A stretch of 64,000 bases of DNA from Actinomycetospora sp. NBRC 106378 (GTDB lineage Bacteria > Actinomycetota > Actinomycetes > Mycobacteriales > Pseudonocardiaceae). Below the pieces are notes generated by a model, which worked only from the letters and a program-made list of their open reading frames with translations, did no database searches and had not been told where the DNA came from. Of the stretch, positions 1 through 19,011 are shown piece by piece; the stretch's first letter is position 1; each line of letters starts with the position of its first letter. Made by a program: the position numbers and the translations under genes. The DNA is taken from positions 496,001 to 560,000 of the forward strand of contig NZ_BSTT01000002.1 of the NCBI RefSeq assembly GCF_030269685.1, in the 5' to 3' direction.

Positions 1-254
1 CCCCGCAGGACGGCGGCCGGTTCCGACGGCGCCGAGCGCCGCAGCACCGGCCCGGCCACGTACCGGCGGTCGGGCTGCTGCTCGGCGAAGTCCCGGTAGA
101 CGAGCATCGCGAGCAGCCGGTGCGCGGTGGACCGGGCGACGTCGAGCCGCTGCGCCGCGTCGGTCACGCGCAGCGCCCCCTCCTGCTGCAACAGGAGCGC
201 GAGGCGGAGCGCATGGTCCACCGACTCGATCCCGTAGCCCGGCTTGTTCTTCAC
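1..254 (-). CDS. IclR-family transcriptional regulator, N-terminal part (gene cut by the left window edge)
   Basis: Only the first 84 or so residues are in the window. They form an IclR-type winged helix-turn-helix: the helix-turn-helix lies around residues 28-50 (LRVTDAAQRLDVARSTAHRL) and the wing follows (YRDFAEQQPDRRYVAGP). The effector-binding domain lies outside the window. The start is a GTG at 254. The gene is divergent from the transporter at 333, and a GAACG-N7-CGTTC palindrome lies between them, so local control of the transporter and dehydrogenase, and of itself, is the natural inference. Family assignment is firm; the ligand is unknown. Confidence 0.8.
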   Translation of the reverse strand, partial: MKNKPGYGIESVDHALRLALLLQQEGALRVTDAAQRLDVARSTAHRLLAMLVYRDFAEQQPDRRYVAGPVLRRSAPSEPAAVLR

Positions 255-332: not shown

Positions 333-1628
333 ATGACGACGCGTACGGCGCCCCCCTCCACCTCCCGGCCCGCGGCGGGCCGCACGCGTTCGGCCGTCCT
401 CGGCACGCTCGGCAACGTCATGGAGTGGTACGACTTCACCGTCTACGGCTTCCTCGCCGCCTCGATCGGTGCCGCGTTCTTCCCGGGCACCGACCCGGTC
501 GCCGCGCTGCTGGCCTCGTTCGCCGTGTTCGCGGTCGGCTTCGTCGCGCGCCCGATCGGCGCGCTCGTCCTCGGCCCGGTCTCCGACCGCCGCGGGCGCC
601 GGTTCGTGATGCTGCTGTCGATGCTGCTCATGGCCGCGGGCTCGCTCGTCATCGGACTCAGCCCCACCTACGCGAGCATCGGCGCCGTCGCGCCCGCCCT
701 GATCGTCCTCGGGCGGCTCATGCAGGGGTTCTCCGCGGGCGGCGAGTTCGGCAGCGCCGCGGTCTTCCTCACCGAGTGGGCCAGCCGGGGCCGGCGCGGG
801 CTCTACGGCAGCTTCCACCAGGTCGGCACCTACGGTGGCCTGCTGCTCGGCATCCTCGTGGTGTCGCTGCTGACCTCCGTCGTCGGGCCGGACGCGGTGC
901 GGGAGTGGGCGTGGCGGATCCCGTTCCTGCTCGGGGCGCTGCTCGCGCTCGTCGTGCTGGTGCTGCGGCGCACCGTCGGGGAGACCCCGGAGTTCGAGGA
1001 CCTGGAGCGGGCCCGCGCGACCGGTGCGGAGACGCGGACGGAGTCCTCGGTCCCGGTCGGTCGGGCCTTCGTCCTGGCCCTGGGGGTCGTGGCGCTGTGG
1101 GCCGTCACGTCGTTCGTGACGATCAACTACATGCCGACCTTCGCCGCCACGTTCGCGAAGGTCCCGGCGACCTCGGCCCTGTGGGCGACCGCGATCGGCT
1201 GCGTCCTCGCGGTGGCCCTCATCCCGGTCTTCGGGCACCTGTCCGACCGGGTCGGGCGCCGTCCGCTCATCGTCGGCTCGGCCGTCGCCTTCGTCGTGCT
1301 CCCGGTGCCGCTGTTCGCGCTCCTGGTCGCGCTGCCCTCGTTCGGCACGCTGGTCCTGGTCCAGGTCGTCTTCGCGGTCCCGACGAGCATGATCGCGGGT
1401 GCCGGCACCGCCACCATCAGCGAACTGTTCGGCACGCAGCGCCGGGGAGCGCTGGTCTCGATCGCGTCGGCGATCTCGGTCGCGGTGTTCGGCGGCGCCG
1501 GCGGGTACGTCGCGACGCTGCTGGTGAGCACCACCGGGCTCGCGATCTCGCCGTCGTTCTACATCGTCGCCGTCGCGCTGATCACCCTGGTCGCCGGTCT
1601 CGCGCTGCCGCGCACGGCGGGCCGGTGA
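333..1628 (+). CDS. MFS transporter, metabolite:H+ symporter (MHS) type
   Basis: A 431-residue polytopic membrane protein with about 12 hydrophobic segments, presumed to import an organic acid or similar metabolite with protons. The MHS signature NVMEWYDFTVYGF lies near residues 28-40, the loop motif SDRRGRR near 84-90, and a second copy (SDRVGRR) in the C-terminal half, as expected from the duplicated six-helix fold. The ATG at 333 follows AGGAG (321-325). The next gene overlaps by 4 nt, so transporter and dehydrogenase are translationally coupled. The substrate is not evident; the divergent IclR gene suggests substrate-responsive control. Confidence 0.85.
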   Translation: MTTRTAPPSTSRPAAGRTRSAVLGTLGNVMEWYDFTVYGFLAASIGAAFFPGTDPVAALLASFAVFAVGFVARPIGALVLGPVSDRRGRRFVMLLSMLLMAAGSLVIGLSPTYASIGAVAPALIVLGRLMQGFSAGGEFGSAAVFLTEWASRGRRGLYGSFHQVGTYGGLLLGILVVSLLTSVVGPDAVREWAWRIPFLLGALLALVVLVLRRTVGETPEFEDLERARATGAETRTESSVPVGRAFVLALGVVALWAVTSFVTINYMPTFAATFAKVPATSALWATAIGCVLAVALIPVFGHLSDRVGRRPLIVGSAVAFVVLPVPLFALLVALPSFGTLVLVQVVFAVPTSMIAGAGTATISELFGTQRRGALVSIASAISVAVFGGAGGYVATLLVSTTGLAISPSFYIVAVALITLVAGLALPRTAGR

Positions 1629-2332
1629 GGACGTCCTCCGTCCTGGTCACGGGCGGCACCGGATCCCTCGGTGCCGCCCTGTGCCGTCGGTTCCGGGCGG
1701 ACGGCCACGTGGTGGTCGCGGCCGACCGGTCCGGCGCGGCCACCGTGCCGGACGTGGTGCACCACCACCCGCTCGACGTCACCGACCCGGCGAGCGTCGA
1801 GGCCTGCCTCGACGCGGCCGAGCGGCTCGCCCCGCTCTCGACGGTGGTCCTGGCGCACGGGGTGCTCCTGCCCGCGCCGGGGCGCGAGGCGGCCGGGGAA
1901 CGGATGGCCCGCACGCTCGAGGTGAACCTGGCCGGCGCGGCGCGGGTCGCCGCGCTGGCCGCCGACCGGATGCCCTCGGGGAGCATCGTGTTCCTGAGCA
2001 GCCACGCGTCCCGCTTCGGCCGCATGCCCGGAGCCTCGGTGTACTCGGCCAGCAAGGCCGGGGTGGAGGCCCTGGCCCGGGGCCTGGCCTGTGAGTACGC
2101 CCCGCGGCTGCGGGTCAACGCGGTGGGCGTCGGGTTCCTGGAGACCCCGATGCGGGGCGCGGGTGCCGAGGCGCGGGCGGCCGCCTCCGGGGATCTCCTC
2201 GCGCAGGTACCGATGGGGCGCTACGCCACTCCCGACGACGTCGTGGAGGCCGTGTCCTACCTGGCCTCGGACCGTGCCTCCTACGTCACCGGGACCACGC
2301 TGATGGTCGACGGCGGGGTCACCGCCCGCTGA
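1625..2332 (+). CDS. Short-chain dehydrogenase/reductase (SDR)
   Basis: A 235-residue classical SDR. The cofactor loop TGGTGSLG is at residues 9-16, the catalytic serine sits in FLSSHAS (around 126) and the Y-x3-K pair is Y140/K144 in YSASKAG. The C-terminal DGGVTAR is usual for FabG-like enzymes. It should oxidise or reduce a small hydroxyl/keto substrate with NAD(P)(H). The GTG start at 1625 overlaps the transporter stop (GTGA), so it probably acts on what the transporter imports. A strong hairpin follows the stop. Specificity cannot be read from the sequence. Confidence 0.85.
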   Translation: MRTSSVLVTGGTGSLGAALCRRFRADGHVVVAADRSGAATVPDVVHHHPLDVTDPASVEACLDAAERLAPLSTVVLAHGVLLPAPGREAAGERMARTLEVNLAGAARVAALAADRMPSGSIVFLSSHASRFGRMPGASVYSASKAGVEALARGLACEYAPRLRVNAVGVGFLETPMRGAGAEARAAASGDLLAQVPMGRYATPDDVVEAVSYLASDRASYVTGTTLMVDGGVTAR

Positions 2333-2392: not shown

Positions 2393-3520
2393 TCACCAGG
2401 GGCGGTCGCCGGGCTGCGGGTGCGACCGCACCCCCGCGTCGTCGAGCAGGTCGAGCACCGCCCGGAACCCCTGCAGCTCGGCCGGGCTCCACAGCGGGAA
2501 GTTGATGAGGATGTTCCGCACGTCCTGCCCGGTCAACCGCACGAGACGCTCCGCGACCTGCTGCGGGGTGCCGACCAGCTGCAGCATCGCCTCGCCGCTG
2601 CCCAGCGCGCGGACCGCCTTGTCCTCGCCGAGCTTGTCGAACATCGCCCGGGCCGACTCGATCGAGCCGAGGATGTCGCCGGCGATCTCCCACGCCGCCT
2701 CGTGGTTCAGCGACTCCAGCAGGCGCGCGTACTCCTCCTCTGCCTCGCCCTCGTTCTCGCGCACGAGGGCGATCGCGAACGGGGTCACCGAGACGTCGCG
2801 TCCGTTGCCGGCGGTGAGCCCGGCGAGCCGCTCGCCGACGCCGCGCAGGGCGTCGTCGTCCTTCGCGAGGGTGACCAGCTCGTCGCAGTAGTTCGCGGCG
2901 AACGCCGTGCCTGCGGTGGAGGCGCCGGCGCTGACCAGGTGCGGTCGCGGGTCGCTCGCCGGCCGCGGCGCCTTGATCCGGCCCCTGAGCCGGTAGTAGC
3001 GCCCGTCGTGGTCGATCGGCTCGTGCTCGGTCCAGAGCCGCTCGACCACGTCGACGAACTCGGCGGCCATCGCGTAGCGCTCGTCGTGCTCGACGAACTC
3101 CGCGCCGAACAGGGCGGCCTCGGCGTCGGAGAACCCGGTGACCACGTTCCAGCCCCAGCGCCCGGAGCTGAACGAGTCGAGCGTCGCGCCCATCCGGGCC
3201 ACGTGCGCGGGTTGGTGGTGGGTGGTGTGGAAGGTGGAGACCACGCCGATCCGCTCGGTGACGGCGAAGATGCCCATGGCGAGCAGCGGGGCGTGGTAGG
3301 CGGGGGACTGGTGGCCCGCGACCTCGGCCGCCCGCTGGTGACCCGACCAGTTGTCGGCGATGAACAGCGAGTCGAAGCCGACCTGCTCGGCGGTGCGGGC
3401 GAGCTCGAGCAGGTTCTCCTTGTTGAGCCGGGGGGTGCGGCGGGCGGCCTCGTCGGACCAGACGTGGTTCGTCTGGCCCGCGGGGAAGAAGTAGCCGATC
3501 GACAGCCGGTCAGGTGCCAT
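2393..3520 (-). CDS. Luciferase-like flavin-dependent monooxygenase 1 (NtaA/DszA/RutA type)
   Basis: A 375-residue bacterial-luciferase-fold monooxygenase that would use reduced FMN from a separate reductase; none is encoded nearby. Family hallmarks are GFDSLFIADNWSGHQ near the N-terminus, the TTHHQPAHVARMGATLD stretch, GRWGWNVVTGFSDAEA, and the conserved KAPRPASDPRPHLVSAGAS segment. It is the last gene of the six-gene operon and a clear paralogue of the monooxygenase at 6861-8018 (both open YFFP-GQT). Start at 3520, 30 nt after the thiamine-diphosphate gene. Oxidation of an ether, amine, sulfone or ring is possible. Confidence 0.85.
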   Translation of the reverse strand: MAPDRLSIGYFFPAGQTNHVWSDEAARRTPRLNKENLLELARTAEQVGFDSLFIADNWSGHQRAAEVAGHQSPAYHAPLLAMGIFAVTERIGVVSTFHTTHHQPAHVARMGATLDSFSSGRWGWNVVTGFSDAEAALFGAEFVEHDERYAMAAEFVDVVERLWTEHEPIDHDGRYYRLRGRIKAPRPASDPRPHLVSAGASTAGTAFAANYCDELVTLAKDDDALRGVGERLAGLTAGNGRDVSVTPFAIALVRENEGEAEEEYARLLESLNHEAAWEIAGDILGSIESARAMFDKLGEDKAVRALGSGEAMLQLVGTPQQVAERLVRLTGQDVRNILINFPLWSPAELQGFRAVLDLLDDAGVRSHPQPGDRPW

Positions 3521-3550
3521 GGGTGGTCGTTCCTCTCGGGAAGCGGCGAC

Positions 3551-5245
3551 TCAGTCGTCGGCCTGGGTGAAGACGCGGGAGAACTCGTGGGCGTCCTCGG
3601 GGGAGTTCACGACCTCGATCAACGTGGCCCGGCGGTCGGCGAACGCCTTGTCCAGAGCGGCACGCAGCTCGCCCGGGGTGGCGACCCGGCGACCTTCCAG
3701 CCCGAGGCTCGCGGCGTAGGCCGCGTGGTCGATGGGCGGGTCGCCGAAGGTCCAGCCCATGACGTCCTCGGCATCGACGAGCGGGCTCTTCGCGACGGTC
3801 GCGAGGGCGCCGATGTCGCGCCAGCCGCCGTTGTTGAGGATGACGAACACGACGGGCAGGTCCTGCTGGGCGGCGGCGTAGATCGCCGTGGAGGAGAACA
3901 TGAACCCGCCGTCGCCGAGCAGGGCCACCACCCGGCGGTCGGGCCGGGCGAGCTGGATCCCGATCGACGCCGGGCCGCCCCAGCCCTGCGCGCTGGCCTT
4001 GCTCGAGATGCCGAAGAAGGTGTCGGTGTCGGGGTAGGGGAGGAGGTCCTCCACGAACGGCTCCCCGGACGCGCAGTGGTTCACGACGATCGTGCCCGCC
4101 GGCATCGCGGCCTCGAGCTCGGTGAGGATTCGGCCGATGGCCAGCTCCTCGGCGTCGAACCGGATGCCGCGGATCCGCTCGTTGCGGGCGTCCCGCGCCT
4201 CGTGCAGCTCGCGCGCCGCGGCCGCCCGGCGGTCCCGGACCTCGTCGGGAACGGCACCGAGTGCGGCCGTCACCGCCTCGAGGGTGGGGCGCGGGGAGCC
4301 GAGGACGGCGAGGTCGGGCCGGAGCTGGCGGGTGAGCAGCATCGGGTCGGGGCTGAGCACCACGGTGGTGGCGTCGCCGAACTCGACCGGTCGGGTCAGC
4401 CCCGACTCGGTCAGCTCGACCCCGAGCAGCAGCAGCACGTCCGCCCGGTCGACGACGCCGCGGTGGGCGCCGAGCCGACCCGCGAACTGCGGGTGGGTGG
4501 TGGGGAAGCCCAGGTCGGCGATCTTGTCCTCGTGCAGCACCGTCGCCCCGAGCGCCTCGGCGAGGGCCACCGTGGCCTCGACGGCGCCGTAGCGCGCGAC
4601 CTCCGCCCCCGTGACCATCACCGGGTGCGTACTGGTGCGCAGCAGCTCCGCGACCCGGTCGACGGCGGCGGGGGCCGCGACGACGTCCGCGAGCACCTCG
4701 GTCGGCCGGCGCTGCTCGACGTCCTCGGTCTGCTCGAGCCAGACGTCCATCGGGAAGGCCAGGTGCACCGGCCCGTAGGGCGGGGTGTTCGCGATCTGGA
4801 AGGCCCGCTCCACCAGCTCCGGGATCCGGTCCGCGGACGGGATCTCGGCGCTCCACTTCGTGTACTGGCCGCTCATCTCGGTGACCGCGCGCGGCACGGC
4901 GGCGTACTGGTCGCGTCCGGCCAGCGCGCGGCTCGACGTGGTGGTGGTGAAGACCAGCGGCACGCCGTCGGCCCACGCCGTGGTCAGCGCCATCATCCCG
5001 AGCCCGGTCCCGGAGGCGTGGTAGACGTTGACGAACGCGGCCGAGCGGTTCGCCCGGGCGTACCCGGCGGCGATGAGCCCCAGGTTGGTCTCGTTGAGCG
5101 CCGAGACGTAGCGGACCTCGTCGCGGTGCGCGTAGAACGCCTCGGCCAGGGGGAACAGCCCCAGCCCGACGATGTTGAAGGCGTCCTTCACGCCGAGCCG
5201 CACCAGCGTGCGGACCAGCGACTCCGCGCCGTTGATCGGTGCCAT
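3551..5245 (-). CDS. Thiamine-diphosphate-dependent enzyme (benzoylformate decarboxylase/acetolactate synthase type)
   Basis: About 564 residues, full length for the family, with the usual order of pyrimidine-binding, central and diphosphate-binding domains. The cofactor-activating glutamate is E52 in SALNETNLGLIAAGYAR. The Mg-ThDP motif runs from GDGG (about 444) to ILNN (about 472). Reaction type: decarboxylation or carboligation of a 2-keto acid; the exact substrate is unknown. An upstream ATG at 5281 overlaps the esterase stop as ATGA but has no Shine-Dalgarno. The ATG at 5245 has GGAGGA 6 nt upstream (5257-5252), so 5245 is preferred. Middle of the esterase/monooxygenase operon. Confidence 0.85.
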   Translation of the reverse strand: MAPINGAESLVRTLVRLGVKDAFNIVGLGLFPLAEAFYAHRDEVRYVSALNETNLGLIAAGYARANRSAAFVNVYHASGTGLGMMALTTAWADGVPLVFTTTTSSRALAGRDQYAAVPRAVTEMSGQYTKWSAEIPSADRIPELVERAFQIANTPPYGPVHLAFPMDVWLEQTEDVEQRRPTEVLADVVAAPAAVDRVAELLRTSTHPVMVTGAEVARYGAVEATVALAEALGATVLHEDKIADLGFPTTHPQFAGRLGAHRGVVDRADVLLLLGVELTESGLTRPVEFGDATTVVLSPDPMLLTRQLRPDLAVLGSPRPTLEAVTAALGAVPDEVRDRRAAAARELHEARDARNERIRGIRFDAEELAIGRILTELEAAMPAGTIVVNHCASGEPFVEDLLPYPDTDTFFGISSKASAQGWGGPASIGIQLARPDRRVVALLGDGGFMFSSTAIYAAAQQDLPVVFVILNNGGWRDIGALATVAKSPLVDAEDVMGWTFGDPPIDHAAYAASLGLEGRRVATPGELRAALDKAFADRRATLIEVVNSPEDAHEFSRVFTQADD

Positions 5246-5277
5246 GTCGTGTCCTCCGTCGTCGTTCGTCGGCTCGC

Positions 5278-6864
5278 TCATCGGCCGAGCACGTCGGCCA
5301 CGCCGTGGAACCGGTCCCAGAACGCCATGCGGGCCGGGTGCGGCTCCTCGCCCGGCCCGGGGTCGACGTCGAGGGCGAGCACGCCGTCGCCGAGCGTCGG
5401 CCAGTCCAGCGCGCCGGAGGCGGTCGGGTCGCCGGTCCGGAGGAAGTCGACCCAGGCCTGCTGCACCCGCGCGGAGAGGGCCCGGTCGGCGTCGGTCCAG
5501 TCCCAGGCCCAGGTGTCGAGCGTGCCGAAGGCGTACGGGACGTCGGCGCCGTGGAAGGCGCCCGCGTACTCCCGCTCGACGAGGTCGTAGCCCGCCGGGA
5601 TCGGGGGCACGCGCAGGAACCGGTGGTAGCGGACCGGCGAGGTGAGCCGGCGGTGGTGCAGGCGGGCGGCCGTCCAGGTCGACCAGACGAAGACCTGGTC
5701 GGCGAGCAGGGCCCAGCTCGACTGCTGCGCCTCCTCGTCGGTCGTCGCCGGGTAGAGGTCCAGGACCTCGGCCGCGAGATCGCCGAAGGCCTCCTCGACG
5801 TCGGCCCGGTACGCGGCGAGGGTGCCGATGTAGGGCAGCCCGGAGGCCTCATTGCCGGTGTTGCCCGCGAGCATCGGCACGTCGGCGACCTCACCGGCGA
5901 CGAACGCCGCGAGCGGGTCCTGCGGCAGCACGTGGCCGTCGATGACCGGGTAGCCGGTGTCGAACAGGGCCAGCCCGACCTCCGCGCCGGGGACGAGGTC
6001 GAACGACCAGCGGCCCGCGGCCCGCGGCAGCTGGGTGGCCATGAGCTGCTCCGCGGGGAGGGCCCGCAGCTCGGCGAGGGTCGGCGCGCCGAGGGCCTGC
6101 GCCAGCTCGGCGCCGGCCTGCTCGCCCGCGGCGAGCGTGGAGGGGTTCGCAGGGTGACCGGGGCCGTCGAGGGCCGGGCCCATCCCCGGACCGCTCGACA
6201 CGATGACCTTGTCGAACAGCCCGGCGGCCAGGGGCGAGCTCCGCAGGTTGTGCACGCTGTGCCCGCCGGCGGAGACACCACCGAGGGTCACGTTGGCGGG
6301 GTCGCCGCCGAACGCGGCGATGTGGCGCCGTACCCACTGCAGGGCGGCGATCTGGTCCATCAGGCCGTAGTTGCCGGAGCCGCCGTAGCCGGACTCGGCG
6401 GTGAGCTCGGGGTGCGCGAGGAACCCCAGCCGGCCCAGCCGGTGGTTGACGGTGACCACCGTGACGCCCGCGGCGGCCAGCGAGGTCCCGTCGTAGATCG
6501 GATTGCCCGCCGACCCGAACTGGTAGGCGCCGAAGTGCAGCCAGACCAGGACCGGGCGGCCGGTCCCGCCCTCGGCGCCGGTCCAGACGTCGAGGTGCAG
6601 GCAGTCCTCGGAGAACCGCTGCTCGCCCCCGGAGTACAGCGAGTTCGGCGGCGGCGGGAACTGCGGCGCGGCGGGCGCGTGCCCGGTCGCGTCCCGCGTC
6701 CCGGTCCACGGGACGACGGGCTGCGGCGGACGCCACCGCAGGTCGCCGACGGGCGGGGCGGCGTAGGGGACGCCGAGGAAGGCGCGCACGCCCTCGGCCG
6801 GGGTCAGCCCGGCCAGCTCGCCGTCGTCGGTCGCGACCATGGGGGTGGTCGACGTCGGTGTCAC
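5278..6864 (-). CDS. Type-B carboxylesterase
   Basis: A 528-residue alpha/beta hydrolase of the carboxylesterase-B/para-nitrobenzyl-esterase family. The nucleophile is S198 in GGVSAGG, where valine replaces the usual glutamate of GESAGG. The SEDCLHLDVW motif is at 85-94, the oxyanion-hole stretch (VLVWLHFGAYQFG) around 105-117, and the likely catalytic histidine is H438 in FHGADVPYAFG. No signal peptide is evident, so it should be cytoplasmic and cleave an imported ester. Start GTG at 6864 overlaps the stop of the upstream monooxygenase (GTGA). Its place in the operon suggests ester cleavage is one step of the pathway. Confidence 0.88.
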   Translation of the reverse strand: MTPTSTTPMVATDDGELAGLTPAEGVRAFLGVPYAAPPVGDLRWRPPQPVVPWTGTRDATGHAPAAPQFPPPPNSLYSGGEQRFSEDCLHLDVWTGAEGGTGRPVLVWLHFGAYQFGSAGNPIYDGTSLAAAGVTVVTVNHRLGRLGFLAHPELTAESGYGGSGNYGLMDQIAALQWVRRHIAAFGGDPANVTLGGVSAGGHSVHNLRSSPLAAGLFDKVIVSSGPGMGPALDGPGHPANPSTLAAGEQAGAELAQALGAPTLAELRALPAEQLMATQLPRAAGRWSFDLVPGAEVGLALFDTGYPVIDGHVLPQDPLAAFVAGEVADVPMLAGNTGNEASGLPYIGTLAAYRADVEEAFGDLAAEVLDLYPATTDEEAQQSSWALLADQVFVWSTWTAARLHHRRLTSPVRYHRFLRVPPIPAGYDLVEREYAGAFHGADVPYAFGTLDTWAWDWTDADRALSARVQQAWVDFLRTGDPTASGALDWPTLGDGVLALDVDPGPGEEPHPARMAFWDRFHGVADVLGR

Positions 6865-8018
6865 CACGAGAAGCTCCGCTCGCTCGGCGGGAGCCAGATT
6901 CCGGCGTCCCGGCAGTGGTCGAGGACGCTGCGGAAGGACCGGACCTCGTCCGGGTTCCACAGCGGGAAGTTGACGAGCAGGTTCTGGGTCGAGGTCTCCT
7001 TCTTGAGCTCGACGAGCTGCTCGGTGACCTGTTCCGCCGTACCGAGGAACTTCAGGATGCCGCGGCCGCTGCCCCAGGCCTTGGCGGCCTCCTGCGGGTC
7101 CTGACCGGCGAAGGCGCTCCGGATCGACTCCACGCCGCCGAGGATGTCGGCGGCGAGTTCCTTGGTGGCCTCGACGTTCAGCGTCTCGGTGAGCCGCTCG
7201 TACTCCTCCTCGGCCTCGCCCTCGCCGTCCCGGACGATGACGATGGAGAAGGGCGCGGTGCTCACCGTCCGGGCCGGGCTCCGTGTCTCGAGCAGGTCCT
7301 CGAGCCGCTGGTCGACGGCCTGGATCTTCTCGACGGTGTTGCCCGCGACCACCAGCTGGTCGCACTGCTCGGCCGCGAACGCCATGCCGGCCGGGGAGGC
7401 GCCTGCGCTGACGAGCAGCGGCGTCGGCTCCTGGACCGGCCGCGGCGCCTTCATGCGCCCCTGGGCGGTGTGGAACCGGCCCCGGTGGTCGATCGGCTCG
7501 TCCTCGGTCCAGAACCGCTTGACGACCTCGACGAACTCGGCGGCCGAGGCGTAGCGGTCGTCGTGCCCGGCCATGGCGGTCTCGCCGAACAGACGGGCCT
7601 CGGCGTCGCCGAACCCGGTCACGACGTTCCAGCCCCACCGACCGCCGCTGAAGGCGTCGAGGGTCGCCCCGGCCCGGGCCACGTGGGCGGGGCGGTGGTG
7701 GCTCGTGTGCATCGTCGTGATCACGCCGAGGTGCTGCGTGACCGCGAAGAGGCCCATGGCGAGCATCGGGGCCTGGTACTTCGGCGACTGGTGCCCGCGG
7801 CGTTCGGCCTCCCGCTGGTGGCCCGACCAGGTGTCGGCGATGAACAGTGAGTCGAACCCGGTCTCCTCGGCGGCGCGGGCCATCTCGAGGAAGACGTCCC
7901 GCTCGAGGGTCGGCGTGGCGGCGGCCGCCTCGTCGGACCAGATGTGGTCGGTCTGCCCGGTCGGGAAGAAGTAGGAGAAGCTCAGCAGGTCGGGGTCGTG
8001 GTGGCGTGGCTTGGCCAT
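6861..8018 (-). CDS. Luciferase-like flavin-dependent monooxygenase 2 (NtaA/DszA/RutA type)
   Basis: A 385-residue paralogue of the monooxygenase at 2393-3520: it opens SFSYFFPTGQTDHIWSDEA and keeps GFDSLFIADTWSGHQ, SHHRPAHVARAGATLD, GRWGWNVVTGFGDAEA and KAPRPVQEPTPLLVSAGAS. It should insert one oxygen atom using FMNH2 and O2. ATG at 8018; the gene starts 27 nt after the aldolase stop and its stop overlaps the esterase start, so the genes are co-transcribed. Two diverged copies in one operon suggest successive oxidations or two related substrates. The reductase partner must be elsewhere. Confidence 0.85.
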   Translation of the reverse strand: MAKPRHHDPDLLSFSYFFPTGQTDHIWSDEAAAATPTLERDVFLEMARAAEETGFDSLFIADTWSGHQREAERRGHQSPKYQAPMLAMGLFAVTQHLGVITTMHTSHHRPAHVARAGATLDAFSGGRWGWNVVTGFGDAEARLFGETAMAGHDDRYASAAEFVEVVKRFWTEDEPIDHRGRFHTAQGRMKAPRPVQEPTPLLVSAGASPAGMAFAAEQCDQLVVAGNTVEKIQAVDQRLEDLLETRSPARTVSTAPFSIVIVRDGEGEAEEEYERLTETLNVEATKELAADILGGVESIRSAFAGQDPQEAAKAWGSGRGILKFLGTAEQVTEQLVELKKETSTQNLLVNFPLWNPDEVRSFRSVLDHCRDAGIWLPPSERSFSW

Positions 8019-8045
8019 GGACGTCCTCGTTCGATGGGAGTGCGA

Positions 8046-8735
8046 CTAGGCCGACAGCCCGCGGACCAGGTGGTCCCAGGCGGAGTGCACGGCCGCGGGG
8101 TGGTAGATGTGCTCGCGCTTGGCCAGCGCCTCCTCGTCGTCGGTCCACCGCGGGGTGCCGCCGAAGGCGAGCGTGCGCAGCATCTGCTCGGCGGCGGACT
8201 CCAGGAGCAGGGCCGCGAACGTGGCCGTCTGCAGGTCGGGGCCGACCGTGACGAGGCCGTGGTTGACGAGGAACAGTCCCGAGCAGTCGTCGAGAGTCTT
8301 CGCGACCGAGCGGCCCAGCTCCCGCGTGCGGATGAGGTCGGTGGTCTCGGTGAAGACGGGGACGGCCGGGGGCACGAAGAAGGTCGCGGCGTGGCTCACC
8401 GGGCGCAGCTCGACGCCGGCGGCGGCCAGCGCGACGGCGTGCGGCGAGTGGGAGTGCACGACGCCTCCGACATCGGGCCGCGCCGCCAGGATCTCGGTGT
8501 GGATGGGAAACTCGACGTGCCGGGGCCCGTCGCCCTCGAGGACGTCGCCGTCGGGCGAGACGAGGTGCACGTCGTCCGGCCTCACCTCGGCGAGTCCGAG
8601 GCCGCTGCGCTTGATCCACGCGCCGCGCCCCTCGGGGTCGCGGGCCGACGCGTGACCCCAGATGAAGTCGTCGTGGTCGGCCGCACCGAGGACCCGGGAG
8701 GCGAGCGAGACCAGCTCGCGGATGTCGTCGCTCAT
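8046..8735 (-). CDS. Class II aldolase/adducin-family protein (fuculose-phosphate-aldolase fold)
   Basis: A 229-residue metal-dependent aldolase-fold protein. Three zinc-ligand histidines are visible: H94 and H96 in VVHSHSPHA and H159 in LFLVNHGLVTVG; E75 (RHVEFPIHTE) is in the place of the catalytic acid. Members cleave phosphorylated sugars or decarboxylate/cleave 3-hydroxy acids. No kinase is nearby, so a non-phosphorylated substrate is more likely. ATG at 8735 with GAAGGG just upstream. It starts 8 nt downstream of the aldehyde dehydrogenase stop; an aldehyde produced here could feed that enzyme. Confidence 0.82.
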   Translation of the reverse strand: MSDDIRELVSLASRVLGAADHDDFIWGHASARDPEGRGAWIKRSGLGLAEVRPDDVHLVSPDGDVLEGDGPRHVEFPIHTEILAARPDVGGVVHSHSPHAVALAAAGVELRPVSHAATFFVPPAVPVFTETTDLIRTRELGRSVAKTLDDCSGLFLVNHGLVTVGPDLQTATFAALLLESAAEQMLRTLAFGGTPRWTDDEEALAKREHIYHPAAVHSAWDHLVRGLSA

Positions 8736-8743
8736 GGCGCCCT

Positions 8744-10231
8744 TCAGTAGGAGATGTTGATCGACTTGAGTTCGGTGTAGCTGAGGAGCTCCTCGAGGCT
8801 CTCCTCGCGACCGACACCGGAGGCCTTGACCCCGCCGTAGGGCACGTTGGGGAAGTGCTTCGCCGAGTCGTTGACCCAGGTGAAGCCGGCCTCGAGCTCG
8901 TGGGCCAGGCGCAGGGCCCGGCCGATGTCGCGGGTCCAGACGGCCGCGGTCAGTCCGTAGGGCGAGTCGTTGGCGATCCGGACGGCGTCGTCCTCGTCGT
9001 CGAAGGCGAGGACCGACAGGACCGGGCCGAAGATCTCCTCGCGGGCGACGGTGTGGTCCTCCCGGACCCCGGTGAGCACGGTGGGGGCGATGAACAGGCC
9101 GTGCGGCCGGCCCTCGGGGCGGCCGCCCCCGGTGACGACCGTGGCGCCCTCGCGCTTCGCGGTGTCGAGGTAGCCGAGGACCTTGTCGTACTGCCGCTGG
9201 TCGATCATGGTGCCCTGCTCGGAGGCCGGGTCGAGGGGATCGCCGAGGCGGTGCCCGCGCAGCCGGTCCGCGATCCGGTCCACCAGCTCGTCGTGCACCG
9301 ACCGTTCCACCAGCAGGCGGGAGTTCGACCCGCAGGACTGGCCGGACCAGGTGAAGTTCATGCCCCGGATCGCGGCGTCGGCCGCGGCGTCGAGGTCGGC
9401 GTCGGCGAAGACGACCATGGCGTTCTTGCCACCCAGCTCCAGGCTGACGTCCTTGATGCCGGACGCGGCCGCGGCCTGCTGGATCGCCCGGCCGGTGCGC
9501 TCGGAGCCGATGAACCCGATCCGCCGGACGTCGGGGTGCCGGACCAGGCGGTCCGGGACGGTCGGCCCGTTGCCGACGACGATGTTGAGCACCCCGGGCG
9601 GGAAGACGTCGCGCAGCAGCTCCCCGAGCCGCAACGCCGAGAGCGGGGCCACCTCCGGCGGCTTCAGGATCGTGGGGTTGCCCGCCACCAGCGGCGCGAA
9701 GATCTTGCCGGCGAACATCAGCGGGTGGTTGAACGGCACGATCCGGACCACCACGCCCACCGGCTGCCGCACGGTGAGGTGCAGGCCGGCGCTGGCCGGG
9801 ATGGTGTCGCCCTTCATCTCCAGCGCGAGCCCGGCGAACAGCCGCGCCTGGGCGAGCGTGATCTGGACGTCCGTGCGGGAGTTCGCGAGCGGCGACCCGG
9901 CGTCGATGGTGTCGAGCAGGGCGAGCTCCTCGCCGTGCTCGGCGATGATCCGCGCTGCCTCCACGACGGCGGCCGCCCGCTGCGGCGCCGGCGTCAGTCG
10001 CCACATCCGGCGGGCGGCGTGGGCCGCCGCGACCGCGGCGTCGGCGTCCTCGATCCCCGCGTCGGGGACGGTGGCGATCGGCTCGCCGAGGAACGGGCTG
10101 ATCCGGGCGTAGGTGCGTCCACCGGTGGCCGGCCGGAGCTCCCCGCCGATCAGGAGGTTCCAGCTCCGGTCGCGCACGGCCAGGTGGCCGGAATCCGGCT
10201 CCGTCCGGGTCGGCGTCTGGACCGCGTCCAT
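8744..10231 (-). CDS. NAD(P)-dependent aldehyde dehydrogenase
   Basis: A 495-residue canonical aldehyde dehydrogenase: N168 in VPFNHP, K190 in ILKPPE, the general base E265 in LELGGKN and the nucleophile C300 in WSGQSCGSNSR are all present. It oxidises an aldehyde to its acid in the cytoplasm. It is the first gene of the six-gene minus-strand operon. The 17-nt leader segment 10244-10260, directly upstream of its ATG, is repeated exactly in front of the dehydratase gene at 18892. A CAGAA/TTCTG palindrome lies about 65 nt upstream. The substrate is unknown, perhaps the aldolase or thiamine-enzyme product. Confidence 0.9.
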   Translation of the reverse strand: MDAVQTPTRTEPDSGHLAVRDRSWNLLIGGELRPATGGRTYARISPFLGEPIATVPDAGIEDADAAVAAAHAARRMWRLTPAPQRAAAVVEAARIIAEHGEELALLDTIDAGSPLANSRTDVQITLAQARLFAGLALEMKGDTIPASAGLHLTVRQPVGVVVRIVPFNHPLMFAGKIFAPLVAGNPTILKPPEVAPLSALRLGELLRDVFPPGVLNIVVGNGPTVPDRLVRHPDVRRIGFIGSERTGRAIQQAAAASGIKDVSLELGGKNAMVVFADADLDAAADAAIRGMNFTWSGQSCGSNSRLLVERSVHDELVDRIADRLRGHRLGDPLDPASEQGTMIDQRQYDKVLGYLDTAKREGATVVTGGGRPEGRPHGLFIAPTVLTGVREDHTVAREEIFGPVLSVLAFDDEDDAVRIANDSPYGLTAAVWTRDIGRALRLAHELEAGFTWVNDSAKHFPNVPYGGVKASGVGREESLEELLSYTELKSINISY

Positions 10232-10412: not shown

Positions 10413-12305
10413 ATGCAGTTCTACCTCGACGGCTACGAGCCCGGGGACCCCCGGATCGCCCGTCCGCTCCCGGTGGCGCCCGAGCGCGGTGAGCAGCCCC
10501 CGGACACGACGGACGTCCTGATCGTCGGCGCCGGACCCGCCGGGCTGGTGCTCGCGGCCCAGCTCGCGGCGTTCCCCGAGGTCCGCACGGTCCTCGTCGA
10601 CCGGCGCGACGGTCCGCTCGCGGTCGGCCAGGCCGACGGGGTGGCCTGCCGGACGGTGGAGATGTTCGAGGCGTTCGGCCTGGCGGACCAGGTCATCGCG
10701 GAGGGCTACCAGGTCAACGAGGTCACGTTCTGGCGGCCCGACCCGCAGGACGAGGCGTCCATCGTGCGGACCGGGCGGGTCGACGACGTGGAGGAGGGCA
10801 TCTCCGAGATGCCCCACATGATCGTCAACCAGGCCCGCATGCTCGCCTTCCTCCGCGAGCACACGGCGCGCTCGGCCGGCCGGGCCGAGCCCTGGTACGG
10901 GCTGCACGCGACCGGCGTGCAGGTCGACCCCGACCCGGCGGCCGAGTACCCGGTGACGGTCACCCTGCAGGAGATCGAGGGGGGCGGGACCCGCACGGTC
11001 CGCGCCCGCTACGTCGTGGGCTGCGACGGGTCGCGCAGCGCGATCCGCAAGGCCATCGGCGCGCGGCTGCAGGGGGACTCGACGCACCAGTCGTGGGGGG
11101 TGCTCGACGTGCTCGCCGTGACCGACTTCCCCGACATCCGGCTGAAGTCCGCGATCAGCTCCGCCGCGGGCAGCATCCTGATCATCCCGCGCGAGGGCGG
11201 TTACCTGGTGCGGCTCTACATCGAGCTGGACAACGACCGCGACAGCGCGATGCTGCGCGACCGCAGCGTCACCCCGGAGAAGCTCGCCGAGGTGGCCGAC
11301 CGGATCCTGCACCCCTACCGCATCGACGTGCGCGACGTCGGGTGGTGGGCGGTCTACGAGATCGCCCAGCGCGTCTGCGACCGCTTCGACGACCTTCCCG
11401 ACGACCTCCCCGACGACCTTCCCGACGATGCCGCCGCCCGGCTGCCGCGCGTGTTCATCGCCGGCGACGCCTGCCACACCCACAGCGCCAAGGCGGGCCA
11501 GGGGATGAACGTGTCGATGGCCGACGCCTGGAACCTCGGCTGGAAGCTCGGCACCGTCCTGCGGGGGACGTCCCGCCCGGAGATCCTGCGGACCTACTCC
11601 ACCGAGCGCCAGGCCGTGGCGCAGCGGCTGATCGAGTTCGACCGCGAGTTCGCGGCCCTGTTCAGCGACCGGGACGCCGAGCCGGAGAAGTTCCAGCACT
11701 ACTTCCGGGAGCAGGGTCGCTACACCGCCGGGGTCGCGGTGCGGTACGGGCCGTCCGTGCTCACCGGCGAGCCCGCGCACCAGCACCTGGCCGAGGGCTT
11801 CCCGGTCGGGATGCGGTTCCACTCCGCGCCGGTCGTCCGGCTGGCCGACGCCAAGCCGATGCACCTCGGCCACGCCGCCCGCGCGGACGGCGCCTGGCGG
11901 CTCTACGCCTTCGCCGACCGCGCCCACCCCGCCGCCGCCGACTCCCGGCTCCGGGCCCTCTGCGACGTCCTCCCCGACCTCGTCGCCCGGTTCACCCCGC
12001 CCACCGCCGACCCGGACGCGGTGGTCGACGTCCGCGCGGTCCTGCAGCAGGGCCACCGCGACGTCGAGGTGCACGATCTCCCCCCGGTCCTCCTGCCCCG
12101 CAAGGGTCGGTTCGGGCTCGTCGACTACGAGAAGACGTTCTGCCCCCGCCCGGGCGAGGACCTGTTCGACCGGCGCGAGGTGGACCGCGAGCAGGGCTGC
12201 CTCGTCGTCGTGCGCCCGGACCAGTACGTGGCGCAGGTGCTGCCCCTGGACGCGTACGCGGACCTCGCCGACCTGCTCGGCGGGTCGCTGGTGCCCGTCC
12301 GGTGA
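10413..12305 (+). CDS. FAD-dependent aromatic hydroxylase (phenol 2-monooxygenase/3-hydroxybenzoate 4-monooxygenase type)
   Basis: A 630-residue group A flavin monooxygenase. The Rossmann FAD motif GAGPAG is at 39-44, the DG motif in VVGCDGSRSAIRKAIG and the second FAD motif in FIAGDACHTHSAKAGQG. The length and the C-terminal thioredoxin-like region are those of phenol or 3-hydroxybenzoate hydroxylases rather than PobA. It should ortho-hydroxylate a phenolic ring using NAD(P)H and O2. ATG at 10413 after GAGGAG (10398-10403). Residues 326-337 hold three DDLP units encoded by a 12-bp repeat, in a loop just before the second FAD motif. The stop overlaps the next start. Confidence 0.88.
   Translation: MQFYLDGYEPGDPRIARPLPVAPERGEQPPDTTDVLIVGAGPAGLVLAAQLAAFPEVRTVLVDRRDGPLAVGQADGVACRTVEMFEAFGLADQVIAEGYQVNEVTFWRPDPQDEASIVRTGRVDDVEEGISEMPHMIVNQARMLAFLREHTARSAGRAEPWYGLHATGVQVDPDPAAEYPVTVTLQEIEGGGTRTVRARYVVGCDGSRSAIRKAIGARLQGDSTHQSWGVLDVLAVTDFPDIRLKSAISSAAGSILIIPREGGYLVRLYIELDNDRDSAMLRDRSVTPEKLAEVADRILHPYRIDVRDVGWWAVYEIAQRVCDRFDDLPDDLPDDLPDDAAARLPRVFIAGDACHTHSAKAGQGMNVSMADAWNLGWKLGTVLRGTSRPEILRTYSTERQAVAQRLIEFDREFAALFSDRDAEPEKFQHYFREQGRYTAGVAVRYGPSVLTGEPAHQHLAEGFPVGMRFHSAPVVRLADAKPMHLGHAARADGAWRLYAFADRAHPAAADSRLRALCDVLPDLVARFTPPTADPDAVVDVRAVLQQGHRDVEVHDLPPVLLPRKGRFGLVDYEKTFCPRPGEDLFDRREVDREQGCLVVVRPDQYVAQVLPLDAYADLADLLGGSLVPVR
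11388..11423 (+). repeat. Three 12-bp in-frame repeats (DDLP x3)
   Basis: Three tandem copies of GACGACCTTCCC (middle copy with one C-for-T change) inside the FAD hydroxylase gene. They add an acidic-proline loop between the catalytic body and the GDACH motif, probably by replication slippage. Confidence 0.85.
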
Positions 12306-13273
12306 GGGAACCCGAGCTGCCGGTCGTCGACGCGCACCACCATCTCGTCGAGGACGCCGACGACCGCATGGCTGCCCTCTGGGGCCGGCGGACCCTCCTC
12401 GCCGACGACTACGCCGAGCTGGTCGGCGAGGAGCGCGTCGTCGCGACGGTCGCCGTGGAGGGGCACACGCGGTACCGGACCTCGGGCCCGGAGCACCTGC
12501 GCCCGGTGGGGGAGACCGAGTTCCTCGCCGGGCAGGGCGACGGGCGGATCGCCGCGGCCATCGTCGGGAACGCCGACCTGCGCCGGGGCGACCGCGTCCG
12601 GGAGGTGCTCGAGGCGCACCTCGCGGCGGCGCCCGACCGGTTCCGGGGCATCCGCCAGGCCGCCCTGTGGGACGAGGACCCGGCCGTCCTCGGTGGGCTG
12701 TTCGACCTGCCGCCCCACCTCTACGCCGACGCGGGCTTCCGGGCCGGGTTCGCCCACCTCGGGCCGCTGGACCTGGTGTTCGACGCGTTCGTCCTCGCAC
12801 CGCAGCTCGCCGACGTCGTCGACCTCGCCCGGGCCTTCCCCGACACCCGGATCGTGCTCGACCACCTCGGCAACCCGGTGGGGACCGGCCGCCACGCCGG
12901 ACGGATGGCCGACCAGCTGCCCGCGTGGCGACGGCACATGGCCGAGCTCGCCCGCTGCCCGGAGGTGACGGTGAAGATGAGCGGCCTGGGCACCGTCCTG
13001 TCGGGCTCCGCGTCCTACCGGGCCGACCCGCCGGTGGGCCCCGACGTGCTCGCCGAGGAGTGGCGCCCCTGGGTCGAGGAGACCGTCGAGCTCTTCGGCG
13101 CCGACCGCGTGATGTTCGGGAGCAACCTCCCGACCGACCGCGTCGGCCCCTTCCCGACGATCCTGAGCGCCTACCGGACGATCACCCGCCACTGCTCGGA
13201 CGCGGAGCGCCGCGCGCTCTTCGCCGGGACGGCGGCGGGCGTCTACCGGCTGGACCTCGAGGGCCGGTGGTGA
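12302..13273 (+). CDS. Amidohydrolase-superfamily metal-dependent hydrolase/decarboxylase
   Basis: A 323-residue TIM-barrel amidohydrolase of the amidohydrolase-2 branch. The metal-binding DAHHH lies at residues 10-14, a barrel strand with VLDHLGNP in the middle and MFGSNLPTD near the C-terminus supplies the late acidic residue. Relatives include lactonases such as 2-pyrone-4,6-dicarboxylate hydrolase and decarboxylases of aromatic acids. GTG at 12302 overlaps the hydroxylase stop (GTGA), so it probably acts on a hydroxylase or ring-cleavage product. Precise reaction not assignable. Confidence 0.8.
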   Translation: MREPELPVVDAHHHLVEDADDRMAALWGRRTLLADDYAELVGEERVVATVAVEGHTRYRTSGPEHLRPVGETEFLAGQGDGRIAAAIVGNADLRRGDRVREVLEAHLAAAPDRFRGIRQAALWDEDPAVLGGLFDLPPHLYADAGFRAGFAHLGPLDLVFDAFVLAPQLADVVDLARAFPDTRIVLDHLGNPVGTGRHAGRMADQLPAWRRHMAELARCPEVTVKMSGLGTVLSGSASYRADPPVGPDVLAEEWRPWVEETVELFGADRVMFGSNLPTDRVGPFPTILSAYRTITRHCSDAERRALFAGTAAGVYRLDLEGRW

Positions 13274-13286
13274 GCGGCCTGCGGGC

Positions 13287-14162
13287 TCAGCTGGCCCGGC
13301 CGGGCGGGGGCCACCAGTCGATCGCGGACACCGGGGTCGCGGGGGCGCCGGTCAGGCGGGGGACGACGTCGGTGACCGCGGCGAGCCCGCCCTCGGCGAT
13401 CGCGAGGTACCAGGAGATCCAGGCTTCGATCTGCTCGCCCGAGAGCCCCAGCCGATAGCGGCGGTCGAAGGCCTCCTCGGGGGTCTCGGGCTCGTACCGG
13501 TAGGGCCGGCCGCTGGCCAGGGCGACCTGCTCGACCTCCTCGGCGAGGGTGAGCGCCTCCGGGCCGGTGACCTCGAGGACGGCGCCCTCGTGGTCGTCGG
13601 GAGCGTCGAGGGCCAGGGCGACGATCACGGCGGCGATGTCCTCGTGGGCGACGAAGGCGGTCCGGCCGGAGCCGCCGGGGCCGCGGACGACGAGGTCGTG
13701 GTCGGCCAGGGAGGCCGGGGTGGAGGCGTAGATCCCGGCCCGGACGATCGTGTGCCGGACCGGGGCCGACTCCAGGTACTGCTCGGTGAGCCAGTGGTCG
13801 CGGGCGTTGCGGTAGGTGGCGTCGGGGGCAGCGCCCAGCAGCGACACGTAGATCACGCGCTCGACCCCGGCGGCGACCGCTGCCTCGACGGCGGTGGCGT
13901 GCTCCTCCAGGCGGCGGCCGGTCGGGCGGCCGGAGACGAGCACGAGGGTCCGGGCGCCGTCGAGGGCGACGCGCATCGCCTCGCCGTCGTCGTAGGCCGC
14001 GGGCCCGCGGGGCTGTGCGCCCCGGAGCCGGGGGAGCCGGGCGGGGTCACGGGCGAGCAGGAGCTGGGGCGCGTCCCGCTCGGCGAGGTGCCGGGCCACC
14101 CGGGAGCCGAGTTCCCCGGTGGCGCCGGTGACGGCGATGGTGTCGTGACGGGGCGTCGACAT
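13287..14162 (-). CDS. NmrA-like NAD(P)-binding atypical SDR
   Basis: A 291-residue Rossmann protein with the extended motif TGATGELG at 12-19 and no Y-x3-K pair in the classical place, as in NmrA/quinone-reductase-like atypical SDRs. It may bind NAD(P)H as a redox sensor or reduce a quinone-like compound. It is convergent with the amidohydrolase (13 nt between stops) and separated from the minus operon upstream by the hairpin at 14213-14248, so it is probably transcribed alone. Start ATG at 14162. Confidence 0.75.
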   Translation of the reverse strand: MSTPRHDTIAVTGATGELGSRVARHLAERDAPQLLLARDPARLPRLRGAQPRGPAAYDDGEAMRVALDGARTLVLVSGRPTGRRLEEHATAVEAAVAAGVERVIYVSLLGAAPDATYRNARDHWLTEQYLESAPVRHTIVRAGIYASTPASLADHDLVVRGPGGSGRTAFVAHEDIAAVIVALALDAPDDHEGAVLEVTGPEALTLAEEVEQVALASGRPYRYEPETPEEAFDRRYRLGLSGEQIEAWISWYLAIAEGGLAAVTDVVPRLTGAPATPVSAIDWWPPPGRAS

Positions 14163-14212
14163 GGAGCACCCTCCGCTCGGGGACCGGGGCGATCACGGTG
14201 CCACGGACGTCC

Positions 14213-14248
14213 CGCGCCGCGCGGGCCGGGCGGGCCCCGCGCGGCGCG
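14213..14248 (-). terminator. Hairpin terminator of the dehydratase-transporter operon
   Basis: A perfect 13-bp stem (CGCGCCGCGCGGG at 14213-14225, complement at 14236-14248, 10-nt loop) starts 7 nt downstream of the transporter stop (14255) and ends before the NmrA-like start (14162). It separates the two minus-strand units. Confidence 0.65.
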
Positions 14249-14254
14249 CGCTCG

Positions 14255-18892: not shown

Positions 18893-18903
18893 GCGCTGTG
18901 GCT

Positions 18904-18920
18904 CCTCGTCGTCGGTGACG
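18904..18920 (-). repeat. 17-bp leader repeat, copy 2
   Basis: An exact copy of the 17-mer at 10244-10260, again in the 5' leader of a minus-strand operon, 11 nt before the preferred ATG. It links the two catabolic operons. Confidence 0.6.
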
Positions 18921-19011
18921 CAGCGCACGCTAGGTCCGGCCCTCAGATCAGGTCCAACTCTCTTTCCGGCTCTCTTGATAAGCAGGAGCTGTCACGGGTA
19001 GGACGGCGGGT
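18921..19011. promoter_or_regulatory. Divergent promoter region between the dehydratase operon and lysR
   Basis: This gap is locally AT-richer and holds a CTCTTT/CTCTTG direct repeat around 18958-18976 (CTCTTTCCGGCTCTCTTGAT). LysR regulators usually bind near such sites between divergent genes. No clean -35/-10 pair can be assigned with confidence. Confidence 0.35.

Follow-up and report, generated by a model that had tools for sequence, protein, structure and literature searches.

A conserved six-gene actinomycete operon with paired luciferase-like monooxygenases and a possible route to 3-hydroxybenzoate

What would a bacterium degrade with a carboxylesterase, two flavin-dependent monooxygenases, a thiamine diphosphate (ThDP)-dependent enzyme, a class II aldolase-family protein and an aldehyde dehydrogenase? 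The question arises from six minus-strand genes in a 64,000-nucleotide stretch of the 6.3-Mb Actinomycetospora sp. NBRC 106378 genome (contig NZ_BSTT01000002.1, positions 496,001 to 560,000; hereafter the window, whose own coordinates are used throughout). A preliminary description had assigned these families to genes at 2393-10231 and read them as one catabolic operon. All six genes were found in place, and Pfam confirmed every family:

8744-10231, minus strand: NAD(P)-dependent aldehyde dehydrogenase (ALDH); Pfam Aldedh, 7e-152; GQSC and LELGG motifs
8046-8735, minus strand: class II aldolase-family protein, interpreted as a candidate hydroxyarene-carboxylate decarboxylase; Pfam Aldolase_II, 3e-40
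6861-8018, minus strand: LLM1, a luciferase-like monooxygenase (LLM) dependent on flavin mononucleotide (FMN); Pfam Bac_luciferase, 7e-50; own tree clade
5278-6864, minus strand: type B carboxylesterase with a GTG start and a 4-base overlap with LLM1; Pfam COesterase, 7e-92; GVSAG nucleophile motif
3551-5281, minus strand: ThDP-dependent enzyme; three TPP domains (Pfam); closest to benzoylformate decarboxylase, without its catalytic Ser/His/His
2393-3520, minus strand: LLM2, an FMN-dependent LLM, NtaA/DmoA-like; Pfam Bac_luciferase, 4e-53

Their description as mostly coupled is correct because the spacings of successive genes are 8, 27, -4, -4 and 30 bases, and the single catabolic operon is supported as a prediction from sequence. 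A simple scan returned no sigma-70-like promoter (0.2 expected by chance), and third-position GC, measured on whole stop-to-stop frames, is 0.96-0.97 for LLM2, LLM1 and ALDH, the three of the six that passed the filter applied. The statement that no named pathway is known to have this set likewise stood, with no match to a characterised pathway in NCBIfam, PDB or literature searches. None of the NCBIfam models shown (the best 25 per protein) reaches its cut-off for the six operon proteins, and the literature search found no paper joining LLMs with gentisate, an esterase, a reductase or a ThDP enzyme.

Do the six genes form a unit beyond this genome? The comparison of operon conservation that had been proposed as a check revealed order and content to be kept in Actinomycetospora termitidis and Amycolatopsis sp. 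GM8, and content in two more genera. In total, five genomes besides this one contain the six genes, two of them in a changed arrangement, and with the window's own genome included at least four genera are represented. A. termitidis (locus L012) carries an amidohydrolase gene, the six genes in window order, a short-chain dehydrogenase (SDR), a transporter and an IclR regulator at 81-94% identity; Amycolatopsis sp. GM8 (L013) has the same set without the SDR, at 68-87%. A second congener (genome G002, locus L056) preserves the window arrangement from IclR through an Fe-type dehydrogenase, while genome G230 (L053), from another family of the order, and Herbiconiux oxytropis (L017 and L067, on one contig) hold the six genes and the transporter in changed order.

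Related loci were sorted by gene content into three classes. Class B (n=6: the window, L056, L012, L013, L053 and L017/L067) combines LLM1, esterase, LLM2, ThDP enzyme, aldolase-family protein, ALDH, transporter and IclR; the ThDP enzyme, the aldolase-family protein and the class-B ALDH occur in 6/6 of these clusters, a pattern from which the classes were themselves drawn, and had no match in the stretches read of all three class A clusters. Class A (n=3: Amycolatopsis pithecellobii L014 with L068/L069, Acrocarpospora L015 with L070, and the Streptomyces chartreusis plasmid locus L050) joins LLM1, esterase and LLM2 to an M24 peptidase, a flavin reductase, gentisate dioxygenase, EthD and NTF2 proteins and RibBA, the L015 match to RibBA spanning 27 residues only. 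In class C (n=5: L016, L018, L051, L052 and L076), only one LLM is present, accompanied by a cyclodeaminase-family protein, a flavin reductase and an FAH protein; L016 and L076 have the esterase as well. In L076, an ALDH (39%) has as neighbours a hydratase and an HpaI-type aldolase (both read by eye), a grouping that resembles a lower pathway of the homoprotocatechuate type. The aldolase of the Gordonia locus (L016) scores best with an HpaI-like exception model (337 bits against a cut-off of 397), a weak reading because it passes the dapA cut-off (280 against 206). Outside the class counts are L019 and L020, near-identical to L016 and with the LLM cut by a contig end, and L054 and L055 of genome G395, whose two LLM pieces sit at contig ends; 21 of the 30 homologous loci (27-33% identity) were left unannotated, four of these serving as the tree outgroup.

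The cluster is rare and patchily distributed among bacteria. The ThDP enzyme, 75-92% identical in four relatives, was matched at E 1e-80 in 3/200 relatives (own genome counted), and a tblastn search of 72,556 plasmid records gave no match at 1e-60. LLM1 was matched at E 1e-90 in 4/397 genomes of the order, 2/394 of the class and 1/396 of the phylum, again counting the own genome, and in 2/19 genomes of the group around Amycolatopsis GM8. That six generic catabolic genes share a neighbourhood by chance, with no common substrate, is very improbable: every family is common and broad, but the six stand together in each of six genomes drawn from four or more genera, even when rearranged (two genomes), despite the rarity of close LLM1 proteins.

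Where might such a pathway end? A candidate answer lies next to the operon, in a gene transcribed away from it:

10413-12305, plus strand: flavin adenine dinucleotide (FAD)-type monooxygenase, predicted 3-hydroxybenzoate 4-hydroxylase type, divergent from the operon; best solved relative 2dkh

This protein aligns with 2dkh, the 3-hydroxybenzoate hydroxylase MobA, at 758 bits over residues 1-619, versus 373 for phenol hydroxylase; a phenol hydroxylase identity was rejected at this halved score. The substrate contacts of MobA, as given in PMC3546652, are D75 and Y271 on the hydroxyl side and H135 and K247 on the carboxylate side. All four are kept (D75, H135, K245 and Y269), as are the stacking residues L258 and I260, and at the positions of H135 and K247 the aligned phenol hydroxylase has, by eye, Gln and Arg. 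MobA and phenol hydroxylase fall into one clade in PMC12915361. The predicted activity of the window enzyme is that of the 3-hydroxybenzoate 4-hydroxylase type, and the same type stands beside the six genes in one congener.

Three relatives (L053, L017/L067 and L013) have a second type of hydroxylase gene, next to ALDH or one gene off. Its best model in each is NF006021, 3-hydroxybenzoate 6-monooxygenase, and the L053 copy has as its best solved relative 4bjy (433 bits), an entry named ‘probable salicylate monooxygenase’ that we take to be Rhodococcus jostii 3HB6H. The His213/Tyr217 pair of 3-hydroxybenzoate 6-hydroxylase (PMC6043778) is kept in 3/3 as an HxxxY motif (HFVQY, HFVQY and HFVRY) at one aligned place, located by spacing rather than by alignment with the R. 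jostii protein. Genes for gentisate dioxygenase, an FAH protein and maleylpyruvate isomerase lie beside the 6-hydroxylase in G230 and G849, and ~10-15 kb off in Herbiconiux. Across 12 genomes or records (E 1e-60 for the 6-hydroxylase, 1e-100 for the 4-hydroxylase, 1e-25 for gentisate dioxygenase), the 6-hydroxylase was detected in five (G230, G849, G850, G851 and G853), all with gentisate dioxygenase, and the 4-hydroxylase in five others (G000, G002, G006, G852 and G854), none with it; plasmid record W01 held gentisate dioxygenase only and W02 none of the three. G850 and G851 for the 6-hydroxylase, and G006, G852 and G854 for the 4-hydroxylase, say less because there the hydroxylase is not at the cluster. 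A 6-hydroxylase would fall within 10 kb by chance with a frequency of roughly 0.2-0.5% in each of G230, G849 and G853 (single-copy at threshold; 4.1-8.2 Mb; shared ancestry ignored).

Because two different 3-hydroxybenzoate hydroxylases join one conserved six-gene module, we consider 3-hydroxybenzoate the probable product of the operon, judged from sequence. The whole explanation, a peripheral aromatic catabolic pathway that starts from a hydroxylated aromatic compound and ends in 3-hydroxybenzoate, has in our estimate about an even chance of being right. Several observations weigh against it. The window hydroxylase passes an NCBIfam subfamily model named ‘phenol 2-monooxygenase’ (928 against 560 bits), and the NF006021 scores of L053, L013 and L017/L067 (379, 352 and 314 bits, the last from a cut fragment) all lie below the curated cut-off of 459. 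A. termitidis has no adjacent 3-hydroxybenzoate hydroxylase, its 67% copy being on another contig. Class A clusters carry gentisate dioxygenase with no adjacent 3-hydroxybenzoate hydroxylase, so this compound may not be the end point of the core in every case; gentisate genes are, moreover, common in actinomycetes. In class C, a lone LLM is paired with another gene set, and no biochemistry was found for any of the six operon proteins.

The known routes of MobA and 3HB6H resemble the proposed one in that the hydroxylases beside the operon and in the three relatives match them at the substrate-binding residues tested. Those routes start at 3-hydroxybenzoate or simple precursors, and, unlike here, none was found to be preceded by a pair of LLMs together with a type B esterase, a ThDP enzyme and an aldolase-family protein.

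What happens upstream of the hydroxylase? The ThDP enzyme has benzoylformate decarboxylase both as its best NCBIfam model (291 bits) and as its best solved relative (176 bits). The mandelate pathway consists of benzoylformate decarboxylase and benzaldehyde dehydrogenase, and the present operon is similar to it in uniting a ThDP enzyme with an ALDH and in a benzoate end product. The ThDP enzyme might accordingly be a 3-hydroxybenzoylformate decarboxylase and ALDH might give 3-hydroxybenzoate directly for the hydroxylase next door, the LLMs and esterase serving only to uncover the keto acid and the aldolase-family protein acting elsewhere. We regard this variant as fairly unlikely, given that the 291 bits fall short of a cut-off of 493 and that L40, Y87 and G294 stand at the positions of S26, H70 and H281, which we take to be the catalytic residues of benzoylformate decarboxylase (the aligned PDB entry itself has M at 26); among the residues compared, only the cofactor-activating Glu is kept (E47, here E64). 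The operon also differs from the mandelate pathway in its additional LLMs, esterase and aldolase-family protein, and no mandelate dehydrogenase was recognised among the annotated genes of the locus, where no search dedicated to it was made. Of the preliminary label ‘2-keto-acid ThDP enzyme’, the ThDP family thus stands, while the 2-keto-acid role is unproven because S26, H70 and H281 are replaced.

The aldolase-family protein had been assigned a C-C-cleaving role as a class II aldolase. Its best NCBIfam model is indeed a general class II aldolase subfamily (124 bits); the nearest equivalog, PhtC, scores 95 bits against a cut-off of 200. Both PhtC, which decarboxylates 3,4-dihydroxyphthalate, and HMPDdc (Mlr6791, 2z7b), which decarboxylates a pyridine dicarboxylate, remove a carboxyl group ortho to a hydroxyl. 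E75, H94, H96, H115 and H159 of the window protein correspond to E109, H128, H130, H149 and H199 of HMPDdc, that is, the full pattern of E, HxH, H and H with the metal ligands, the Glu and a His for Tyr, and all five are invariant in five orthologues. The comparison with fuculose-type class II aldolases came out negative: FucA relies on Tyr113′ and Glu73 (PMC11841055, the source also for the identities of 8il8 and 2z7b), and the Glu is kept here with H115 at the Tyr column, which was read on 6btd rather than on FucA itself. The family assignment therefore holds, and an aldolase role is less likely because the aldolase Tyr is a His, as in HMPDdc. Whether the protein is a decarboxylase we judge, from its residues, to be an evenly balanced question; the residue set fits the removal of a carboxyl ortho to a phenolic hydroxyl, leaving 3-hydroxybenzoate, and is no proof of it. 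Unlike for PhtC, no phthalate oxygenase was recognised among the annotated locus genes, again with no dedicated search made. Two further roles were set aside, the second less firmly. One was that of a pyruvic-oxime dioxygenase, the highest-scoring PDB match at 87 bits, in which Ala stands at the position of the Glu and Gln at that of the His; the other was that of a NovR-like oxidative decarboxylase (66 bits). Structure predictions from five sequences each gave poor models (mean predicted local distance difference test score 55 for the aldolase-family protein and 59 for the ThDP enzyme).

How the two LLMs act is harder to read. LLM1 and LLM2 of the window are 58% identical. They share the Bac_luciferase family of FMN-type LLMs with the two-component enzymes NtaA, DszA, HcbA1 and RutA, yet the similarity is weak: the best PDB scores are 116 bits (DszA) and 112 bits, and the NtaA/DmoA subfamily model TIGR03860 gives 191 bits for LLM2 and 200 for the other LLM, under its cut-off of 279.7. 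Also unlike those systems, the LLMs here are paired paralogues with an overlapping esterase gene and no reductase gene found in the window. One LLM1 and one LLM2 are kept in 9/9 class A and B clusters, and in 8/9, all but L014, LLM1 has the esterase gene as its neighbour in the same orientation. In a tree of 25 rows, with L056 outside it, LLM1 forms a clade of its own (9 rows, support 98/97). LLM2 falls together with the LLMs of class C (11 rows; 80/97, not starred), and L018 lies outside both clades. Since the tree separates LLM1 from LLM2 and the class C LLMs, the pair probably stems from an old duplication. The LLM2 copies from L053 and L017 branch with proteins of class C (93/98, not starred), a sign that this gene may have been exchanged.

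The reported absence of a flavin reductase was borne out: a single query, taken from L050, had no match at a threshold of 1e-8 in the 64-kb window, L012, L013/L066, L053/L065 or L056. It did match in 9/14 related loci (L014 via the upstream L068, L015, L016, L017, L018, L050, L051, L052 and L076), with identities of 30-65% once the query's match to itself in L050 is set aside. The query's own best model is HsaB, at 177 bits below a cut-off of 230. Elsewhere in the Actinomycetospora genome, contig 4 has a 55% match and contig 6 a 27% match, each with one internal stop codon reported and approximate ends.

RutA and PyrA open nitrogen-containing rings, and the RutA-like and NtaA-like scores of the LLMs could point the same way: the LLMs would open a nitrogen ring, the esterase would be an amidase and the other steps would process the fragments. 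Relatives do carry an M24/ectoine-hydrolase-like protein (L050), a caprolactamase-like HyuAB pair (L067) and cyclodeaminase-family genes (L016). However, M24, cyclodeaminase, HyuA and HyuB queries came back empty at 1e-8 in the window, L012, L013/L066, L053/L065 and L056, and the RutA model yields 110 and 97 bits for the LLMs against a cut-off of 498. We hold such an N-heterocycle pathway to be unlikely.

The functional locus is larger than the six genes. Their number had been described correctly but the boundaries had not, as an IclR regulator, a transporter and an SDR on one side, and the divergent hydroxylase with an amidohydrolase on the other, also belong to it:

1-254, minus strand: IclR-family regulator, truncated by the window edge to its N-terminal part; by sequence the likely locus regulator
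333-1628, plus strand: major facilitator superfamily (MFS) transporter of the metabolite:H+ symporter (MHS) type; NCBIfam TIGR00883, 361 bits, below the cut-off of 443
1625-2332, plus strand: SDR; Pfam adh_short_C2, 4e-43
2349-2385, unstranded: perfect inverted repeat of 18 bp between LLM2 and the converging SDR, a putative terminator for both directions (repeat search and RNA fold)
12302-13273, plus strand: amidohydrolase 2 family protein, lactonase-like, overlapping the hydroxylase gene by 4 bases; Pfam Amidohydro_2, 7e-32

The IclR regulator has counterparts in the same relative place in L012 and L013 (94% and 80% identity over 84 amino acids), and an IclR match lies near every class A and B cluster examined. 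A copy of the MHS transporter, 60-97% identical, is present in all five other class B clusters. The SDR has an 84% copy in L012, was matched only as two pieces in G002 (L056), and had no match beside L013. The amidohydrolase, also near the operon in L012, L013 and L056, weakly matches an L-fucono-lactonase model (80 bits against a cut-off of 400). The inverted repeat folds as RNA at -42 kcal/mol (z -5.6); it was not in the output of a simple terminator scan, which gave 1 site against 1.7 expected. Further on, 13287-19902 encodes an NmrA-like protein, an MFS transporter, a D-2-hydroxyacid dehydrogenase, an Fe-type alcohol dehydrogenase, an enolase-superfamily protein and a divergent LysR regulator; named by eye except for the family-scanned Fe-type dehydrogenase, this block looks like a separate sugar-acid or hydroxy-acid operon.

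The related loci show features of their own. A 7.8-kb stretch with a class C LLM (L016:8630-16441, L019:125-7936 and L020:4-7767) is 99.99-100% identical among Gordonia polyisoprenivorans NBRC 16320, Tsukamurella spumae DSM 44113 and Mycobacterium sp. D16Q14; in each pairing the identity breaks off at almost the same base, which suggests a mobile element of recent origin (or contamination). On the S. chartreusis plasmid (L050:14001-28899), LLM, esterase and gentisate genes form a compact cluster that includes RibBA and flavin reductase genes of its own and is flanked on either side by several transposase genes. A Baeyer-Villiger type I-like flavin monooxygenase (weak PtlE match) is encoded within the cluster region at L067:7716-9209 and L053:9144-10643, the two copies being 74% identical to each other, and a 36% relative occurs near the cluster in L012. 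Herbiconiux also has a caprolactamase/acetophenone-carboxylase-like HyuA/HyuB pair at L067:11717-16164 (514 and 217 bits, below the cut-offs), with relatives of 72% and 70% near the A. pithecellobii cluster (L068:16740-18842 with L014:335-2635).

How, then, could the pieces work together? In the proposed pathway to 3-hydroxybenzoate, the MHS symporter would import the substrate, with the IclR protein probably controlling expression. LLM1 and LLM2, with FMNH2 supplied by a flavin reductase encoded elsewhere in the genome, would oxygenate it, probably through a Baeyer-Villiger-type or ring-opening insertion; the carboxylesterase would cleave the resulting ester, and a lactone may be hydrolysed by the amidohydrolase. 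The ThDP enzyme would then take off a side-chain carbon unit to leave an aromatic aldehyde, ALDH would oxidise this to the acid, and the aldolase-family protein would remove the carboxyl ortho to the phenolic hydroxyl to yield 3-hydroxybenzoate. Finally, the divergent hydroxylase would convert 3-hydroxybenzoate to protocatechuate, whose ring could be opened by a chromosomal protocatechuate 3,4-dioxygenase (PcaH is over its cut-off in the own genome, at 352 bits). Evidence from sequence is strong only for the last of the proposed steps, ring hydroxylation; the order of steps and the oxygenation chemistry are doubtful.

A more specific alternative, improbable in our judgement and with its chemistry fitted to the gene set, is the ring dismantling of 5-hydroxynaphthoquinone-like compounds of the juglone/plumbagin type or related polyketide quinones. 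The LLMs and esterase, instead of a ring-cleaving dioxygenase, might open the quinone ring to a hydroxylated carboxyphenylglyoxylate, which the ThDP enzyme might turn into a carboxybenzaldehyde and ALDH into 3-hydroxyphthalate (or, from another substrate, 2-hydroxyterephthalate). The aldolase-family protein might then strip the ortho carboxyl to give 3-hydroxybenzoate, a step with the regiochemistry of PhtC and HMPDdc, so that all six genes would find a use. The juglone degradation literature had no 3-hydroxyphthalate among the matches listed.

Paired luciferase-like monooxygenases are hard to assign by sequence alone. Here, the neighbourhood points to the pathway end, so that substrate screening can start from compounds able to yield 3-hydroxybenzoate or gentisate. 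If the proposed pathway to 3-hydroxybenzoate is true, a likely decarboxylase would be added to the aldolase/adducin superfamily, and an LLM-esterase core would be identified that seems to have been combined with a number of distinct lower pathways.

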